In this document: in pieces, positions 4,926-15,443 of the stretch
Numbering within the stretch: the first letter of the stretch is position 1
Layout of the letters: each line of letters opens with the position of its first letter
From: a virus
Strand: one strand, 5' to 3'
Length of the DNA stretch: 20,543 bases
IMG/VR virus record: IMGVR_UViG_3300028423_000153
Location: 1-20,543 of that record
The notes under the pieces: generated by a model
What the model saw: only the letters and a program-made list of their open reading frames with translations
The model's database searches: none
Told to the model about the DNA's origin: nothing
Translations under genes and position numbers: made by a program

Positions 4926-5873
4926 ATGACTAATGTGAATGACTTTCTGTGGGTCCAAAAATATCGTCCTAAGCGCGTTGAGGAAACGATTCTACCTTCT
5001 TCTACAAAGAAGATGTTTCAAAAATTCGTAGACGAGCGCAATATTCCAAACCTAATTCTAACTGGTCGAGCGGGCATTGGTAAAACAACCGTTGCCAAAG
5101 CAATGCTCGAAGAGATCAACGCTGACTACATTACGATCAACGGTTCGATGAACGGAAACATTGATACTCTTCGTCACGAGATCGCAAACTTTGCATCTAC
5201 CGTTTCTTTCTCAGGTGGTCGTAAGTATGTAATTCTTGACGAAGCTGACTATCTAAACGCCAATTCAACGCAACCAGCACTTCGAAACTTCATGGAGGAA
5301 TTTTCGAAAAACTGTGGGTTCATTCTTACTTGCAATTTCAAAAATCGAATTATCGAGCCTCTACACTCACGCTGCAGTGTTATCGAATTTAGCATCGGTA
5401 AAAATGATAAAGCGAAAATCGCTTCTCAATTCTTCAAAAGAGTGACATGGATTCTCGACCAAGAAAACGTCGAGTATGATCAAAAAGCTGTAGCAGAACT
5501 GATTCAAACATATTTTCCTGACTGGAGACGAGTTCTAAACGAACTTCAACGTTATTCTGCGACTGGGAAAATTGATGCTGGTGTTCTTGTTAACAAGTCT
5601 AACGACTCGATTAAAGAACTAATCGATATGATGAAAAGTAAGAGTTTCACTGGAGTTCGAAAGTGGGTGTCGGAAAACACCGACATCGATAGTGCAATTC
5701 TCTATAGAAAACTATATGACGTTCTTCCTCAATATCTTGACTCAGCCTCAAGCGTTGCTGATGCAATTATCATTCTTGCTGAGTATCAATACAAGGAGGC
5801 GTTTGTAGCTAACAGCGAAATCAATCGTGTTGCTGCTCTTGCAACAATTATGGCGGAGGCTCAGTGGAAGTGA
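4926..5873 (+). CDS. 44: Clamp loader large-copy ATPase subunit (gp44)
   Basis: A 315-residue AAA+ ATPase, close to T4 gp44 (319). It begins with the RFC-type 'WVQKYRPKRVEE' box, then Walker A GRAGIGKTT (residues 47-55), Walker B VILDEAD (102-108), a sensor-1 region 'FILTCNF' and the arginine-finger motif SRC (148-150) in LHSRC. In T4, four gp44 and one gp62 open and load the gp45 ring at primer ends. The ribosome site AAGAGGTG lies about nine bases upstream of the ATG. The stop overlaps the next start (TGATG at 5871-5875). Confidence 0.95.
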   Translation: MTNVNDFLWVQKYRPKRVEETILPSSTKKMFQKFVDERNIPNLILTGRAGIGKTTVAKAMLEEINADYITINGSMNGNIDTLRHEIANFASTVSFSGGRKYVILDEADYLNANSTQPALRNFMEEFSKNCGFILTCNFKNRIIEPLHSRCSVIEFSIGKNDKAKIASQFFKRVTWILDQENVEYDQKAVAELIQTYFPDWRRVLNELQRYSATGKIDAGVLVNKSNDSIKELIDMMKSKSFTGVRKWVSENTDIDSAILYRKLYDVLPQYLDSASSVADAIIILAEYQYKEAFVANSEINRVAALATIMAEAQWK

Positions 5874-6436
5874 TGCTTTATTTTAATGATGAAGGTGTTC
5901 TAGTAAAAGACGAACTAATCGACCCGGACAGTGAATTTAGAAAGATTGTAAGACGTTCAAATGGTATGTTTGATGTCGTTTCTCGGATAGATACCTCTAG
6001 AGCGATATGGCTATTTAATTCAAATGGAAAGAAATCCAATATTCATAAAAATACTGGGTTTTATGTGTTATATGGACCGGAACTCGTTGGGCCTGCTACT
6101 TTTAACATGAGAAAATATATCTCATATTATGTCGGTTATGCTGGGTGCACTAACACGATAAACACTAGATTGGGGCGCTTTATTGCTCATCTTAAGGGTG
6201 AAAATACAGAAAACGAAACTCATCAAGCGGCTAATAGGCTTCGAGAAATTTTATCTTTCTATGATATGCGAGCTCCTATTATAATGTCGAATAGCCTTCG
6301 CGTAAAAGTCTATCCCTATCATATTGACGAGTGGATGGAAAGAGCAAAATACGCTAAAGAACATGACGCTTGGAGAAGTATTGAAATACCTTTCATTAAA
6401 CATTTTAGACCAAAACTTAATAAGAAGGTTTATTGA
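5873..6436 (+). CDS. GIY-YIG family endonuclease, probably a free-standing mobile nuclease
   Basis: A 187-residue protein starting at the ATG that overlaps the gp44 stop. GTG 5864 in frame would extend into gp44 and is less likely. The catalytic domain shows GFYVLYG (GFY 62-64), YYVGYAG (YVG 86-88), R102 in GRFIAHLKG and E171 in IEIPFIKHFRPKLN, which are the four conserved elements of GIY-YIG nucleases. The domain is in the middle to C-terminal part, with about 60 unassigned residues in front. It sits between genes 44 and 62, which are adjacent in T4, so it is best seen as an intruding homing endonuclease. Its codons and spelling (more AT-rich, more ATA/AGA) differ slightly from gp44. Confidence 0.75.
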   Translation: MLYFNDEGVLVKDELIDPDSEFRKIVRRSNGMFDVVSRIDTSRAIWLFNSNGKKSNIHKNTGFYVLYGPELVGPATFNMRKYISYYVGYAGCTNTINTRLGRFIAHLKGENTENETHQAANRLREILSFYDMRAPIIMSNSLRVKVYPYHIDEWMERAKYAKEHDAWRSIEIPFIKHFRPKLNKKVY

Positions 6437-8634: not shown

Positions 8635-9642
8635 ATGTCTTTCTATACTTCTGTTCAGAGATATGGTAACAATATTCTTTTTCGAGGATACGACAACAAA
8701 GGCAATCGTATTCACAAAAAGTTTAAGTTCTCTCCTACATTCTATCTACCTTCAAACAATCAAGAGTGCGACTGGACTGCTCTTGACGGAACTCCCGTAA
8801 AACCAATTCAACTCGATACGATGAGTGAAGCCAAAGAGTTTCTTGAAAAGTATAGTGACGTAGACAACTTTAACATCTACGGAAATACTAATTACGTAGC
8901 TCAGTTCATTCAAGAAGCTTATCCTGGCGAAATCGAGTTTAATTCCAACTTCATTCACGTCGGTAACTTCGACATTGAAGTTGCGTCTGATGAAGGATTT
9001 CCTCATCCTGAAAGTGCTTCGTATCCAGTCATCTCCATTGCTTACAAAAACAGCGTCAATAACATTTATTACGTTTGGGGGTTGGGTGACTATGACGCGA
9101 ATAAGACAGAGTTGGATCTAAAAGATCACATGATTCGTTATGTGAAGTGTCGCTCTGAAGCAGAACTTCTACAGAAGTTTGTGGTGTTCTGGGAAAACAA
9201 CACCCCAGACATCATTACAGGTTGGAATATCCGTCTGTTTGACATACCCTATCTTGTGAATCGAATCGCTAAAGTGTGCGGTGAAAAGACACAGAAGGCA
9301 TTGTCACCCTGGGGTGTCGTCAAATATCGTCAGATTAGCGTCAAAGGCAAGAGTCTGGATGCTTATGAGATTTATGGCGTAGCCCAGATGGACTACTATG
9401 ACCTATTTCAAAAGTTTGGGTATACGTATGGTAACCAAGAATCATATGCGCTAGATCATATCGCGCATGTAGTTTTGGGTGAGAAGAAGCTTTCTTATGA
9501 AGAGCACGGAAATTTATTCAACTTATTGACTAGCAAATCGAGGAAGATTGAAGTTGACAATACTAAGTCTAAAGAGAAGATGGCGGCTTTTGAGAAGTGG
9601 TGTTTGCTAAGAGATAATATAGGGAAAAAGTTGGGCAAATAA
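8635..9642 (+). CDS. 43A: DNA polymerase gp43, N-terminal part (43A): exonuclease domain with Exo I and II
   Basis: A 335-residue family B polymerase fragment. Exo I is D113-I-E115 in NFDIEVAS; Exo II is NIRLFD with D203 in ITGWNIRLFDIPYL; the conserved block YALDHIAHVVLG follows. The frame stops at 9640-9642, before Exo III (YxxxD), which lies in the downstream ORF at 10379. Together the two ORFs total 918 residues, against 898 for T4 gp43, so little or nothing is lost. The last few residues (about from 9609 on) may be non-native sequence. Split gene 43 is known in some Aeromonas T4 relatives with a mobile endonuclease gene between the parts. Whether the halves assemble as two chains or are spliced is not decided here. 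Confidence 0.88.
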   Translation: MSFYTSVQRYGNNILFRGYDNKGNRIHKKFKFSPTFYLPSNNQECDWTALDGTPVKPIQLDTMSEAKEFLEKYSDVDNFNIYGNTNYVAQFIQEAYPGEIEFNSNFIHVGNFDIEVASDEGFPHPESASYPVISIAYKNSVNNIYYVWGLGDYDANKTELDLKDHMIRYVKCRSEAELLQKFVVFWENNTPDIITGWNIRLFDIPYLVNRIAKVCGEKTQKALSPWGVVKYRQISVKGKSLDAYEIYGVAQMDYYDLFQKFGYTYGNQESYALDHIAHVVLGEKKLSYEEHGNLFNLLTSKSRKIEVDNTKSKEKMAAFEKWCLLRDNIGKKLGK

Positions 9643-9664
9643 TACCCTCCCAAGTCCCAGATAT

Positions 9665-9672
9665 TATAAATA
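9665..9672 (+). promoter_or_regulatory. T4-type late promoter for the HNH gene
   Basis: TATAAATA exactly matches the T4 late promoter -10 sequence read by gp55. It lies 40 bp before the HNH ATG. The other HNH gene (minus strand, 14356) has an equivalent element, which supports it. In T4, intron-borne homing nucleases are also late-transcribed. Confidence 0.65.
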
Positions 9673-9711
9673 ACATTATAATATTTGAGACGATATCAGG
9701 AGGAGATTTAG

Positions 9712-10428
9712 ATGTATCTGGACAACAAATATACCAAGATATATTATCAATTGGTCGAAAGGGGTTTAAGTAGAGAATCGGGTGCTGATAGTATTTACTA
9801 TGAAAAGCATCACATAATACCAAGGTCTTTGGGTGGATCAGACGACGATGATAACTTGATGTATTTGCTTCCCAGAGAACATTATGTCGCTCATCATCTT
9901 CTCACAAAAATGGTAGAAGGGACGGAAAAATCTAAAATGACTTTCGCACTACATACCTTTTTTCATTTCAACAAATATAGAAGACTCAACTTCACCGCAA
10001 GACAATACGAGTATCACAAAAAAGAGTTCGCTAAGGCGTGTAAATATAGAGTTCCGAAAACGAAATCCGATGTTTATAGTTTTAAGCATAGAGAGACATT
10101 AGAAGAATTTGTAGGAACCATATACGAATTTCATAAACATAGCGGTCTATCTCAGCAGGAAGTCAATTTTCTGCGAGTTGCTGCCGAAGATGAAGCGTCT
10201 ACGACTAGATGGATAAAAAATTGGGGGGTTTGGGTTGATGAGTTGCAAGATTGGTCTTATAATAAGAGAAAGAAACCTAGTAGACAAACTCCTGTGATAT
10301 GCGAGCACTGTAATAAAAGTGTGTCGCCTGGAAATTATTCGAGGTGGCACGGAGATAATTGTAAGGAAGTAGATATCGATGGACACTATGCGAGAACTAG
10401 ACAGGTTGCTAGAATCAGCAAGCGTTGA
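9712..10428 (+). CDS. HNH homing endonuclease inserted in gene 43
   Basis: A 238-residue protein with good ribosome site AGGAGG seven bases before the ATG. The nuclease motif is H33-H34 in KHHIIPRSLGGSDDDDNL with N48, then the last His at EHYVAHH (57-62). A C-terminal C2HC knuckle (C197, C200, H213, C217) in ICEHCNKS...RWHGDNC is typical of DNA-binding tails of phage HNH enzymes. The frame runs 50 bases into the start of the second polymerase ORF, so the last dozen residues may be non-native. It resembles the HNH at 14356: both share 'HHI.P...GGSD...NL.YL...EH..AH....KM'. Its role would be to cut gene 43 of related phages lacking the insert. Confidence 0.85.
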   Translation: MYLDNKYTKIYYQLVERGLSRESGADSIYYEKHHIIPRSLGGSDDDDNLMYLLPREHYVAHHLLTKMVEGTEKSKMTFALHTFFHFNKYRRLNFTARQYEYHKKEFAKACKYRVPKTKSDVYSFKHRETLEEFVGTIYEFHKHSGLSQQEVNFLRVAAEDEASTTRWIKNWGVWVDELQDWSYNKRKKPSRQTPVICEHCNKSVSPGNYSRWHGDNCKEVDIDGHYARTRQVARISKR

Positions 10429-12130
10429 TGAATTACTCGAAATGGATTTAGATCGTTTCACCCGTGACGAGTTGGAATATTTATTTGATAGAGTCCAAAC
10501 CAAGGCAGATGATGTGTGCTACAGTCTTGGAATCGACTATAACATTCGAGATGTCCAGCTTGTAGATGAAATCGATAAGCAGACCGGTCTACTTGATCTA
10601 GGTCTAACGATTGCATATAAAGGTGGTGTCAACTATCCAGATGTTTTCGGAACAACTGGTATTTGGGATAGCATTACATATCGTTATTTGAGCGACCGCA
10701 AGATTGCAGTGCCACAGCCAGAACACAAAGAAAAAGGAGATTATCCAGGTGGCTACGTGAAAGAGCCGATCACGGGTATGAACGAGTGGGTTGTGTCTTT
10801 CGATCTTAATTCACTGTATCCGAACTTGATCGTGCAGTATAACATGTCACCTGAAACACTTCTCAAAAGTCCTGCTGATATGCTTCCGAGTGGTGTTGAC
10901 TTCTATCTTGAAAATGGTCTTCATCCTTCGGTGCACGAAAGAAACGTATCTGTGGCAGCGAATGGGTCTTGTTATCGTAAAGACGTGAAGGGATTTATCC
11001 CCGAGATTATTGTAAATCTATACGATGAAAGAAAGACCGTCAAAAAGCAAATGCTCGAAAAGAAGCAGGAATATGAAAAAAACAAATCTCCAAATCTAAA
11101 TAGAGATATTACACAACTAGACAACCGCCAAATGGCAGTAAAAATCCTTTTGAATTCACTTTATGGTGCACTTGGGAATAAATATTTCCGTTATTTTGAT
11201 CTACGAGTAGCAGAGGCAATCACACTATCTGGTCAGCTTTCGATTCGCTGGGCTGAAAAGGCGATGAATGATTCGTTGAATAGTATTCTCGGTACAGATG
11301 GTGAGGATTACGTGATTGCAATTGATACGGACTCTCTCTATGTCAATATGAAACCACTTGTGGATAAAGTTCAACCAAAAGATCCTGTATCGTTTCTCGA
11401 CAAAGCGTGTGAGCAAAAGTTCGAACCTATTCTCGAAAAGGCTTATCAAAAGCTATTCGAAAAAATGAATGCGTATGAAAATCGAATGGTCATGGCAAGA
11501 GAGGCAATTGCAGATCGTGGAGTGTGGACGGGTAAAAAACGTTACATTCTCAACGTTCATAATAACGAAGGTGTTCAGTATACAGAACCGAAACTCAAGG
11601 TCATGGGACTTGAAGCAGTTAAGTCTTCAACCCCTCAGATCATTCGAGACAAGTTCGAAGAAGCATATCGAATCATTCTAACTGGCGAAGAAAAAGACCT
11701 TCATAAGTTCGTCGCAGACTTTGAGAAGCAGTTCAAATCTCTTTCACCAGAAGAAGTATCGTTTCCTCGAGGTGTGTCTGAGATCGATAAGTGGAAAGCT
11801 GGGTCTGACATTTACAAGAAAGGGACGCCAATTCACGTTAGGGGCGCTTTGCTTTTCAATTGTAAAGCTAAAGAGCTAGGTTTAGATCGAAGCGTTGAGT
11901 TGATCAAGAATGGCTCTAAAATCAAGTTCTGCTATCTAAAAACGCCAAATCCGCTTCGTGAAAACGTTGTGTCTTTTCCACAGTATCTTCCACGTGAAAT
12001 GGGGCTAAACGATTACATCGATTACGATAAACAGTTTGACAAAGCGTTCAAGGAACCACTTCGTCTTGTCACGGACGCGATTGGTTGGAACCTAGAACAC
12101 ATTAATACAATTGAAGATTTCTTTGTATGA
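10379..12130 (+). CDS. 43B: DNA polymerase gp43, C-terminal part (43B): Exo III, palm, fingers and thumb
   Basis: A 583-residue fragment. Exo III is Y54-N-I-R-D58. Polymerase motif A is FDLNSLYP (D142), motif B is K255-x3-N259-SLYG, and motif C is D316-T-D318-S. The C-terminus ends 'NTIEDFFV', plausibly the clamp-binding peptide (T4 ends LDFLFG). The start at ATG 10379 has AAGGAAG (10363-10369) nine bases upstream, so it can be translated alone; ATG 10388 is an alternative. The first 45 residues are charged and helical. Upstream of 10373 the frame is closed by TAG at 10370. Domain content means this chain has polymerase activity residues but lacks two of the three exonuclease motifs. Confidence 0.92.
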   Translation: MDTMRELDRLLESASVDELLEMDLDRFTRDELEYLFDRVQTKADDVCYSLGIDYNIRDVQLVDEIDKQTGLLDLGLTIAYKGGVNYPDVFGTTGIWDSITYRYLSDRKIAVPQPEHKEKGDYPGGYVKEPITGMNEWVVSFDLNSLYPNLIVQYNMSPETLLKSPADMLPSGVDFYLENGLHPSVHERNVSVAANGSCYRKDVKGFIPEIIVNLYDERKTVKKQMLEKKQEYEKNKSPNLNRDITQLDNRQMAVKILLNSLYGALGNKYFRYFDLRVAEAITLSGQLSIRWAEKAMNDSLNSILGTDGEDYVIAIDTDSLYVNMKPLVDKVQPKDPVSFLDKACEQKFEPILEKAYQKLFEKMNAYENRMVMAREAIADRGVWTGKKRYILNVHNNEGVQYTEPKLKVMGLEAVKSSTPQIIRDKFEEAYRIILTGEEKDLHKFVADFEKQFKSLSPEEVSFPRGVSEIDKWKAGSDIYKKGTPIHVRGALLFNCKAKELGLDRSVELIKNGSKIKFCYLKTPNPLRENVVSFPQYLPREMGLNDYIDYDKQFDKAFKEPLRLVTDAIGWNLEHINTIEDFFV

Positions 12131-12386: not shown

Positions 12387-13439
12387 ATGTCTCTAATTGA
12401 TAAGCTACAAAAATCAGGTGCTGTTAAACACACATCTGTTCTTTCCGAATCTACTTACTTTAATGTTAAAGAAAGTGTTCCCACTGACATTCCTATTATC
12501 AACTTAGCATTATCAGGTCAACTTAATGGGGGGCTTACTTCAGGATTGACCTTTTTAGCGGGGGAATCCAAAAGTTTCAAGTCTCTCCTGGGTTTGATGA
12601 TGGTTAAGGCATACTTGAAAAAACACGAAGATGCAGTATGTCTGTTCTATGATAGCGAGTTTGGAACTACGCCTGGATATATTGAGACTAACGGTATCGA
12701 TCCTAATAGAGTGCTACATATTCCAATTGAGCATCTAGAACAGTTGAAATTTGACATTTCAAAAAGACTTGATGCTATCGAAAGAGGAGATAAGGTTATC
12801 ATCTTTGTTGATTCTGTAGGTAATCTTGCATCTAAAAAAGAGGTGGATGACGCTCTCGACGGAAAATCCGTTGCGGATATGTCAAGAGCAAAAGTAATGA
12901 AATCTCTTTGGAGAATCGTTACACCAAATCTAACAACTAAAGACATTCCGTGTGTTGCCATCAATCACACATACCAGACTATGGAGCTTTATAGCAAAGC
13001 GGTGATGTCTGGTGGTACAGGTGGAATGTATTCAGCAAATCAGGTATTCATCATCTCAAAGGCCCAAGAAAAGGATGGTAAAGAGTTGAATGGATATAAG
13101 TTTACAATTAACATTGAAAAGTCTCGTTATGTGCGAGAAAAATCTAAGTTTCCGTTTACAGTTCTTTTTGAAGATGGTATAAACAAGTGGTCTGGATTGC
13201 TCGATATTGCTATTGAAGGTGGATTTGTTGTAAAGCCTTCTATGGGGTGGTATTCTAAAGTCGACCCAGAGACAGGTGAGATTGAAGATAAAAAGTATAG
13301 AGCAAAAGACACAAACAACTATAATTTCTGGGAAAGTATTCTTACTAGTAAAGAGTTCCAGGAATATGTTAAAGACCGATATCAAGTTGGTAGAAATGAG
13401 CTTATGAAAGATGAAGAAGAGGTAGATACACAAGAATGA
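12387..13439 (+). CDS. uvsX: UvsX RecA-like recombinase
   Basis: A 350-residue protein. Its Walker A, GESKSFKS (59-66), matches T4 GPSKSFKS, and AVCLFYDSEFGTTPGYI, SKKEVDDALDGK.VADM and CVAINHTYQT (T4 CIAINHTYET) are near-identical blocks. VIIFVDSVGNLASKKE carries Walker B. It forms filaments on ssDNA and drives strand invasion for recombination-dependent replication. It is shorter than T4 UvsX (391) because the acidic C-terminal tail is reduced (ends DEEEVDTQE). ATGA overlap at 13436 couples it to the gp41 fragment. Confidence 0.95.
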   Translation: MSLIDKLQKSGAVKHTSVLSESTYFNVKESVPTDIPIINLALSGQLNGGLTSGLTFLAGESKSFKSLLGLMMVKAYLKKHEDAVCLFYDSEFGTTPGYIETNGIDPNRVLHIPIEHLEQLKFDISKRLDAIERGDKVIIFVDSVGNLASKKEVDDALDGKSVADMSRAKVMKSLWRIVTPNLTTKDIPCVAINHTYQTMELYSKAVMSGGTGGMYSANQVFIISKAQEKDGKELNGYKFTINIEKSRYVREKSKFPFTVLFEDGINKWSGLLDIAIEGGFVVKPSMGWYSKVDPETGEIEDKKYRAKDTNNYNFWESILTSKEFQEYVKDRYQVGRNELMKDEEEVDTQE

Positions 13440-14125
13440 TCGAAAACACAATTCTTTCAGCACTTATTTACAACGAAGACTACACAAGAAAGGTTATCCC
13501 TTTTCTCAAAGAGGAGTATTTTCATGATCTAGCTGAAAAGAAGTTGTTTAATACCGTAACTGATTATGTCGAGAAATACAACGGGCTTCCTACTAAGGAA
13601 GCCCTACATCTTTCTTTGAGTGAGGATAGTAAACTAAACGAGTCAACTTATGAACAAGTCACAAAACTGATTGATTCTCTCGAATACGATGAGAAAACCG
13701 ACGTAAACTGGTTGTCCGAGAAGACTGAAAAGTTTTGTCAAGACCGTGCTATCTATAATGCTGTTCGAAAGTCAATCACGATCCTCGATGGAGACGAAAA
13801 GCAGCTAGACAAGGGCTCAATTCCCGAACTTCTATCAGATGCTCTAGGTGTGTCTTTTGACACTAATATTGGTCATGATTTTCTTGAAGGGTTTGCAGAA
13901 CGCTTCGAGTTCTATCATACTAAAGAGCATAAAGTGCCTTTTGATCTAGAGTTGTTCAACAAAATCACTAAAGGTGGAATATCTATTAGACCTCTTTTGG
14001 GTTTCGATACCTCTTTTACTCCATTCTATTCTGTCTTCTTTTGTAGCACCATGAAATCCGATGTTATTTTCGTGACACCATTTACCTATTTTTCTACGAT
14101 ATTCTACATTAAGATTGGCGCCTAA
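13436..14125 (+). CDS. 41A: Replicative helicase gp41, N-terminal part (41A), interrupted before Walker A
   Basis: Helicase homology covers about residues 1-181 (to about 13978): 'ENTILSALIYNEDYTRKV..FLKEEYF' (T4 VEIILSHLIFDQAYFSKVWPYMDSEYF), 'GHDFLEGFAERFEFYHTKEHKVPF' and NKITKGG (T4 GHDWMDDYEARW..., VPFKLRILNKITKGG). The frame then runs antisense through the HNH gene to a stop at 14125, giving 48 residues without helicase character. In T4 the next segment carries AGVNVGKS, the ATP-binding P-loop; it is not in this frame nor anywhere nearby. As written this piece would be an N-terminal domain only. Start ATG overlaps the uvsX stop. Confidence 0.82.
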   Translation: MIENTILSALIYNEDYTRKVIPFLKEEYFHDLAEKKLFNTVTDYVEKYNGLPTKEALHLSLSEDSKLNESTYEQVTKLIDSLEYDEKTDVNWLSEKTEKFCQDRAIYNAVRKSITILDGDEKQLDKGSIPELLSDALGVSFDTNIGHDFLEGFAERFEFYHTKEHKVPFDLELFNKITKGGISIRPLLGFDTSFTPFYSVFFCSTMKSDVIFVTPFTYFSTIFYIKIGA

Positions 14126-14356
14126 CATATTCATTGCTCTCAAGTCATTAATGTTTTTATGCATTTTCCATAACATAAAGTGCGCTAAAATATGCTCTTT
14201 AACAGTTAAATACGTTAGATTCGATTCATGATCACTACCACCTGCATGTTTTGGTGTTATATGGTGTTTATGTAATTCCGATCCTGGTTTGTAGGATTCT
14301 TTCAATGCTTTTCCGCGTTGACAAAGGTTGTGATAAGTGTTATGATAAATAGACAT
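13946..14356 (-). CDS. HNH endonuclease within gene 41, opposite strand, probably truncated
   Basis: A 136-residue protein read leftward, with AAGGAGA eight bases before its ATG. HNH motif: H31-H32 in HKHHITPKHAGGSDHESNL with N46, then EHILAHF (H55, H59). 'IGKWCHENNIGFHGATKEDRIEWSKRG' is a continuation common in intron-type phage HNH enzymes, which normally run on for some tens of residues. Here the last 15 or so codons (RYSTFSDFVEQL) are the antisense of the helicase KITKGG region, so the native C-terminus seems lost at a junction near 13980-13990. It has its own late promoter at 14418-14425. The catalytic motif is intact, so activity is possible. Confidence 0.8.
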   Translation of the reverse strand: MSIYHNTYHNLCQRGKALKESYKPGSELHKHHITPKHAGGSDHESNLTYLTVKEHILAHFMLWKMHKNINDLRAMNMLGANLNVEYRRKIGKWCHENNIGFHGATKEDRIEWSKRGIETQKRSNRYSTFSDFVEQL

Positions 14357-14417
14357 GCTGGAAATCTCCTTCTACGTTTCTAGTGTGTGTGGGGACTGCC
14401 ATCCCGCGACACACGTC

Positions 14418-14425
14418 TATTTATA
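14418..14425 (-). promoter_or_regulatory. T4-type late promoter for the minus-strand HNH gene
   Basis: TATAAATA on the minus strand, 62 bases before the HNH ATG. Exact match to the T4 late consensus and parallel to the element before the other HNH gene at 9665. Confidence 0.6.
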
Positions 14426-14510
14426 CAAAAGTATTCCCATCCAAACCAAATATAATTTGAAAAGTGAAGTAGAAGCACTATCCCATTACAGTAAAAGCAG
14501 GAGTTATTAT

Positions 14511-15443
14511 ATGAAAATCAGCAATGAGTGGACTGAAGCTAACGTTAGTATTTCAGAAGTTCAAAAACTGCTAGATCAGGGATATGAGGTTGAAGTTGAT
14601 AGCCCAGATGGCTATGTTCCTGTAAACTATTTTGTTGATAAAGGTCAATACGATGAATATGTCTTTGAGGGTGATGATGGTGTTAATATTAGATGCAATC
14701 ATAGACATTTGAATCTGCTTGACGTAACTCTTGACGATCTGGAACTTTTGACGAGAGAAGCTTATACGAGCCGCATTGGACGTGTAAAGTCTCGAACAAC
14801 CGGTAAGTTAGTGATCAAGGAGTATCCAACTACTACTGCCGGCGCTGCTCACTTTAGACATCTACTCAACGAACTTCGCTTGAAAAAGAACTTCACGCCA
14901 GATATCGTCTATATTGATTATCTAAATATTTGCACTAGTTCTCGTCTTCGCTATGGTGCAAACGTAAATTCATACACTCTTGTCAAATCAATTGCAGAAG
15001 AGCTGCGTGGTCTAGCTGTTGAGTTTAATGTTCCAATCGTGAGTGCAACCCAGACAAATCGAACTGGTTATACAAGTTCTGATGTTGGTCTGGAAGATAC
15101 ATCAGAATCATTTGGTCTTCCTGCTACTGCTGACTTCATGTTTGCGATGATATCTACAGAGGAGTTGGAAGAACTCGGTCAAGTGATGGTTAAACAGCTA
15201 AAAAATAGATGGGGTGATATTAGTAACCCGAAAAGATTTGTGGTTGGTATTGATCGATCTAAGATGAGGTTGTTTGATGCGGAAGATTCTGCACAAGAGG
15301 GTCTAATGAAAGATGGCAACACTTCGCCTAAGCAAGCAAAAAGTGACTCCGTGATGGATAACAGTGATTTCGGCGAAAGGCTTGAAGACGAGATTCGAGG
15401 AGCTCATCGTAGAAAAAAACCCAAGTTTGAAGGGTTAAACTAA
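14511..15443 (+). CDS. 41B: Replicative helicase gp41, C-terminal part (41B), with intein-like N-terminal segment
   Basis: A 310-residue protein from ATG 14511, with AGGAG (14499-14503) seven bases upstream. Residues 1-67 are not helicase: 'ISEVQKLLDQGYEVEVDSPD', GYVPVNYFVDKG and DGVNIRCNHRHL look like the first half of a Hint/intein domain, including a block-B-like 'DG..IRC..H'. From residue 68 (LLDVTLDDLELL) the protein follows T4 gp41: VIKEYPTTTAGAAHFRHLLNELRLKKNF, Walker B region IVYIDYL, 'SIAEELRGLAV', TQTNRTGY, SFGLPATADF and QLKNRWGD. The roughly 50 residues between KITKGG of 41A and this point, with Walker A, are absent. A longer frame to 14355 is rejected since it crosses the HNH start with no ribosome site. 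Confidence 0.85.
   Translation: MKISNEWTEANVSISEVQKLLDQGYEVEVDSPDGYVPVNYFVDKGQYDEYVFEGDDGVNIRCNHRHLNLLDVTLDDLELLTREAYTSRIGRVKSRTTGKLVIKEYPTTTAGAAHFRHLLNELRLKKNFTPDIVYIDYLNICTSSRLRYGANVNSYTLVKSIAEELRGLAVEFNVPIVSATQTNRTGYTSSDVGLEDTSESFGLPATADFMFAMISTEELEELGQVMVKQLKNRWGDISNPKRFVVGIDRSKMRLFDAEDSAQEGLMKDGNTSPKQAKSDSVMDNSDFGERLEDEIRGAHRRKKPKFEGLN

Follow-up and report, generated by a model that had tools for sequence, protein, structure and literature searches.

The T4-like phage fragment analyzed here carries the gene for DNA polymerase gp43 in two pieces, which raises the question of how the gene came to be broken and whether a working, proofreading enzyme may still be made from the two products. 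The window, a whole virus record of 20,543 bases, has the gene order gp44, other genes, an Hsp20-like ORF, gp43, uvsX and gp41, in agreement with Kyanoviridae such as C48C1 and S-SM2, and the split gene thus sits at the canonical locus. An earlier note on this DNA had placed the break inside the exonuclease active site and had proposed an alignment with intact gp43 proteins as a check. We carried this out by aligning each gp43 half with 45 relatives and also with RB69 gp43.

Both ORFs described in the earlier note are present, ORF1 (chain A) with 335 and ORF2 (chain B) with 583 residues (Table 1). ORF1 contains the PolB exonuclease domain (Pfam, E 3e-26) and ORF2 the polymerase domain (Pfam, E 6e-31). 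When compared with the gp43 family PHROG 262, residues 1-304 of ORF1 match profile positions 7-309 and residues 48-582 of ORF2 match positions 307-851, with no segment of the profile missing between the two matches; the homology of chain A to gp43 stops at residue 297-304. In the 46-sequence alignments D113 and E115 (Exo I) and D203 (Exo II) of ORF1 are invariant, and so are Y54 and D58 of the Exo III motif YNIRD in ORF2, which carries all of the motifs A, B, and C as well (DLNSLYP, KILLNSLYG, and DTDS), so the distribution of motifs read earlier from the sequence alone was borne out. Residue I52 of ORF2 corresponds to I321 of RB69, and the break therefore falls between RB69 residues 320 and 321, between Exo II and Exo III, with the Exo III aspartate (RB69 D327) six residues past it. 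With every Exo and polymerase motif and a full-length profile match, this is a T4-type gp43 (PolB) on two chains, and the alignments confirm at the sequence level that it is encoded as two ORFs with the break inside the exonuclease active site.

The two ORFs do add up to 918 residues, but the likeness to an intact gp43 that had been drawn from this sum did not hold. Since gp43 of the relatives of this phage has about 830-860 residues (stop-to-stop 827-868) and the pair in the window is longer by approximately 82 residues, of which 31-38 follow the break in ORF1 and 51 precede it in ORF2, the match to the length of T4 gp43 is coincidental. An intact gp43 elsewhere, which had been named as an observation that would count against the split, is absent from the 20.5 kb record, itself a fragment of a genome whose remainder may hold such a copy.

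Table 1 Features of the split gp43 locus, in window coordinates.
Feature	Position	Strand	Evidence
gp43 chain A: N-terminal and exonuclease domain, Exo I/II	8635..9642	+	PF03104, phrog_262, intact relatives
C-terminal tail of chain A (IEVDNTKSKEKMAAFEKWCLLRDNIGKKLGK)	9547..9639	+	absent from intact gp43s; no family match
Inferred insert of 982 nt, by comparison with intact gp43 genes	9549..10530	+	intact relatives, exon flanks
Predicted RNA hairpin sequestering the HNH ribosome-binding site	9646..9703	+	-20.9 kcal/mol, z -6.0
T4-type late-promoter motif TATAAATA, within the hairpin	9665..9672	+	motif and folding
Shine-Dalgarno GGAGGAG of the HNH gene	9699..9705	+	sequence; paired in hairpin
MobE-type HNH homing endonuclease gene, 238 aa	9712..10428	+	PF01844, phrog_655, Aeh1 MobE
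Shine-Dalgarno-like AAGGA for chain B, in the 3' end of the HNH gene	10363..10367	+	sequence
gp43 chain B: Exo III (YNIRD) and motifs A, B, C	10379..12130	+	PF00136, phrog_262, RB69
N-terminal head of chain B, 51 aa	10379..10531	+	absent from intact gp43s; no family match

The gene is uninterrupted in the IMG/VR relatives L142, L145, L146, L149 and others, which are 69-73% identical to the window in both halves. In these intact relatives exactly one codon lies between the positions of ORF1 residue 304 and ORF2 residue 52, where the window has approximately 982 nt, the 5' boundary of this insert being uncertain by about 24 nt. In a public phage collection the junction was spanned in one place in 2569 of the 2582 matching records, a count in which an insertion larger than about 743 nt would have broken the match. 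An interruption at this site of gp43 was seen at no other locus examined, and no relatives of ORF2 were found in bacterial genome contigs.

The description in the earlier note was incomplete: it mentioned neither the HNH gene that separates the halves, nor the control of this gene by a late promoter and a hairpin, nor the extra tails of the chains. The HNH ORF matches PF01844 (E 6e-6) and phrog_655 (E 3e-42), has a C-terminal Cys/His motif (CEHCN...RWHGDNC), and is 39% identical over 127 aa to MobE of Aeromonas phage Aeh1; having an HNH domain related to the Mob proteins it belongs to the MobE type. Several of its annotated relatives are free-standing, for instance between nrdA and nrdB, and the Aeh1 mobE gene is located inside nrdA. 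ORF2 shares 50 nt with the HNH ORF, and it has a ribosome site of its own, as had been claimed, in the form of AAGGA 11 nt upstream from its ATG.

Upstream from the HNH gene a predicted RNA hairpin pairs its ribosome-binding site, and none of 200 shuffled sequences was as stable. A transcript starting at position 9677, just downstream of the TATAAATA motif, would be devoid of the 5' arm, and its computed folding energy is only -0.8 kcal/mol. The window contains five copies of TATAAATA where 0.95 would be expected; the motif by itself is therefore modest evidence for a promoter, and it is the placement within the hairpin that counts. I-TevI, segB, and Aeh1 mobE have been described as controlled in this way, by a late promoter combined with a hairpin that sequesters the ribosome-binding site (PMC2988022).

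The tail of chain A has a net charge of +3 and a pI of 9.4, and the head of chain B a net charge of -9 and a pI of 4.1. The acidity of the head is unusual (1% of the 51-mers in the window), whereas the +3 of the tail is not (13%). In AlphaFold models of the separate chains the tail forms one helix with a confidence below 50 and the head three helices with a pLDDT of about 57-66 for residues 1-40, and the regions facing each other (264-335 in A and 45-58 in B) are poorly ordered or of low confidence. The segments beside the break contain no stop codon in the gp43 frames, which has a chance of about 4-5% each, and the tail and head segments have a higher coding score in the gp43 frame than in the other two and are protein-like. 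Neither tblastn nor an IMG/VR scan found relatives of the tails, and in the lack of a homologue their coding status rests on the open frames and on a codon bias at about the 5th percentile for coding segments. Their amphipathic-helix moment is not significant. An origin of the tails from the hairpin in the fingers of gp43 was considered, as the ends of 43A and 43B in phage 44RR had seemed similar to them by eye, but shuffled sequences did equally well (p 0.14-0.45); homology to the tails of Aeh1 NrdA was likewise unsupported (p about 0.5). By analogy to Aeh1, the tail and the head, encoded by the inserted DNA, plausibly help the chains to dock.

The earlier note had allowed for RNA or protein splicing. 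If the HNH gene were carried by a self-splicing group I intron, the spliced mRNA would encode one normal gp43. The 982-nt insert less the 717-nt ORF leaves about 265 nt, removal of the 982 nt rejoins the frame (RK-I-IDYN) with a U before the insert and a G at its end (9548/9549 and 10530/10531), and intron endonucleases have the same hairpin and late-promoter control; agreement with the group I U...G rule and with the frame is nevertheless weak evidence on its own. Rfam detected no intron in the window at E<=1 or locally at E<=10, and the group I catalytic core (RF00028) gave no match at E<=10, whereas two control introns, the HNH-bearing one in T4 nrdB (E 3.6e-6) and that in gene 43B of phage 25 (E 1e-14), were both detected. 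The supposed 5' exon lacks, in its last 8 codons (LTSKSRKI), the LYK...QKF common to the relatives examined, and the nearly invariant Y298 is among the residues lost from this diverged flank. At either end of the supposed intron the gp43 frame stays open and shows codon bias. A group I intron was dropped as the leading view after Rfam had recovered the positive controls; since joining of the flanks according to the U...G rule would keep the frame, we retain it as an unlikely explanation.

Joining of the two chains after translation by a split intein is extremely improbable, even though split inteins are present in related replication genes (gp41 of L146). The tail begins with IEVD and the head ends with YSLG before I52, with neither a Cys/Ser start nor a His-Asn end followed by a C/S/T nucleophile, and there are no Pfam or PHROG matches, so that an intein is not recognizable at the break. 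A different concern is that gene 43 could be a decayed or mis-assembled copy with no functional enzyme. The gp41 gene of the same record looks damaged, in that its Walker A segment is missing and it contains an intein fragment and an antisense HNH gene that are both truncated, and decay or an assembly error is therefore conceivable at the gp43 locus too. We find this very unlikely, as the open frames, start signals and complete set of catalytic motifs are preserved in both gp43 halves, the record has no further gp43, the regulatory hairpin is intact, and analogous splits by homing-endonuclease genes are found in independent contigs.

With a homing-endonuclease gene in the coding region, the halves as separate ORFs, and neither intron nor intein detected, the locus has the features of genes in pieces, and it is in our view probable that a homing-endonuclease insertion produced a genes-in-pieces polymerase, as in Aeh1 NrdA. 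A free-standing MobE-type HNH gene would have entered gene 43 at a conserved sequence just upstream from Exo III, after which the gene would yield two proteins, A with Exo I/II and B with Exo III and the polymerase. We infer that A and B associate non-covalently, in place of any splicing, to rebuild the polymerase and its 3'-5' exonuclease, one of the three exonuclease motifs being supplied in trans. On the early read-through mRNA the hairpin would keep the endonuclease off, the endonuclease would instead be produced from its own late promoter, and chain B would be translated from its own ribosome site within the HNH gene. The insertion would shield its own site, and spread would be by cutting of intact gene 43.

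According to a review (PMC2988022), Aeh1 NrdA has full activity in its split form and the two parts of gp43 from phage 25 co-purify with polymerase activity, and because of this analogy we consider it most likely that the two chains form a working enzyme. The idea in the earlier note that a split inside the exonuclease active site makes proofreading dependent on assembly of two chains is supported. It is a rather unlikely proposal that the proofreading site exists only when the element-encoded basic tail and acidic head dock; exonuclease activity, and with it the mutation rate, would then follow the ratio in which chains A and B are present in the course of an infection.

The arrangement resembles nrdA-A/mobE/nrdA-B of Aeromonas phage Aeh1, where a MobE-type HNH gene also lies inside an essential enzyme gene with an RBS hairpin upstream, the downstream half overlaps the HNH gene, and a basic tail on the upstream half is matched by an acidic head on the downstream half. 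In Aeh1 nrdA-A is followed by a 46-nt gap with the hairpin, a 237-aa MobE and the overlapping nrdA-B, and the extensions comprise 35 residues with net +6 on NrdA-A and 25 residues with net -9 on NrdA-B. The two systems differ in the enzyme, DNA polymerase here and ribonucleotide reductase in Aeh1, and in the dissimilar tail sequences. The T4 endonucleases I-TevI/I-TevIII share the late promoter and the sequestering hairpin, but theirs lie in splicing group I introns, none of which was detected in the window.

Split gene 43 was, as stated in the earlier note, already known in a few T4 relatives. Aeromonas phages 44RR and 25 make gp43 from two genes (43A/43B, seg43), and phage 25 has an endonuclease gene between them; unlike the window, the break is in the fingers and 43A (498 aa) holds all exonuclease motifs, and in phage 25 the endonuclease is of the Seg type and a group I intron is present in 43B. 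In the IMG/VR contigs L147 (4995-8449; with 71% identity across the exonuclease part) and L228 (2394-5681; about 40%), gp43 is also split by a homing-endonuclease gene, but of the GIY-YIG class and just after motif A. The two GIY-YIG genes are related and each has TATAAATA upstream, L147 furthermore has an RBS-proximal hairpin and a downstream gp43 half that overlaps the endonuclease gene, and group I introns were found in neither contig. A third contig (L235:3301-5932) has gp43 in two ORFs broken in the fingers like 44RR, with a gap of about 100 nt in which no endonuclease ORF was found. From these splits it follows that gp43 fragmentation is recurrent. Split gp43 and active sites shared between chains both have precedents; new here is a break that separates Exo II from Exo III and divides the site at which a replicative polymerase proofreads. 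In related phages gp43 is broken in no fewer than three places (at Exo III, after motif A, and in the fingers), with endonucleases of two classes (HNH and GIY-YIG), and this natural series could be used to study how polymerases cope with being fragmented and whether tails encoded by such elements turn into docking segments time and again.

Some further observations concern gp41 and other genes of the record. The gp41 helicase gene (13436-15443) is interrupted, its N part ending near KITKGG (~13975) and its C part resuming at NLLDV (~14715), and the Walker A segment, intact in L142, L145 and others, is absent from the whole record; the gene may be a pseudogene, be completed elsewhere, or reflect an assembly error. 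Inside it lies a minus-strand HNH gene (13946-14356), apparently truncated at the C-terminus; a copy with 63% identity occupies the corresponding position in gp41 of L146. Positions 14511-14714, in frame with gp41 and fused to it, encode the first part of an intein C-fragment that lacks its splice end; this part is 35% identical to the N-terminus of the UvsX ORF of Pseudomonas phage PA5oct, which itself looks like an intein C-fragment ending in SHN/SGKS. In L146 (5520-5730) gp41 terminates in the short beginning of an intein (ALAG/CVHPSTKVRIRYRSN, then a stop), after which comes an antisense HNH gene, the layout of a fractured split intein; in L192 (6330-7130) the intein at this Walker A site is contiguous. 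Right after gp44 a 190-aa ORF (5864-6436) with YYVGYAGCTNTINTRLGRFIAHLKG looks GIY-YIG nuclease-like by eye and has no PHROG match. Finally, a 508-aa ORF (501-2027) combines a C-terminal HNH domain with an N-terminal region that corresponds to phrog_1583 (unknown function) and contains a DGGHRTRS motif.
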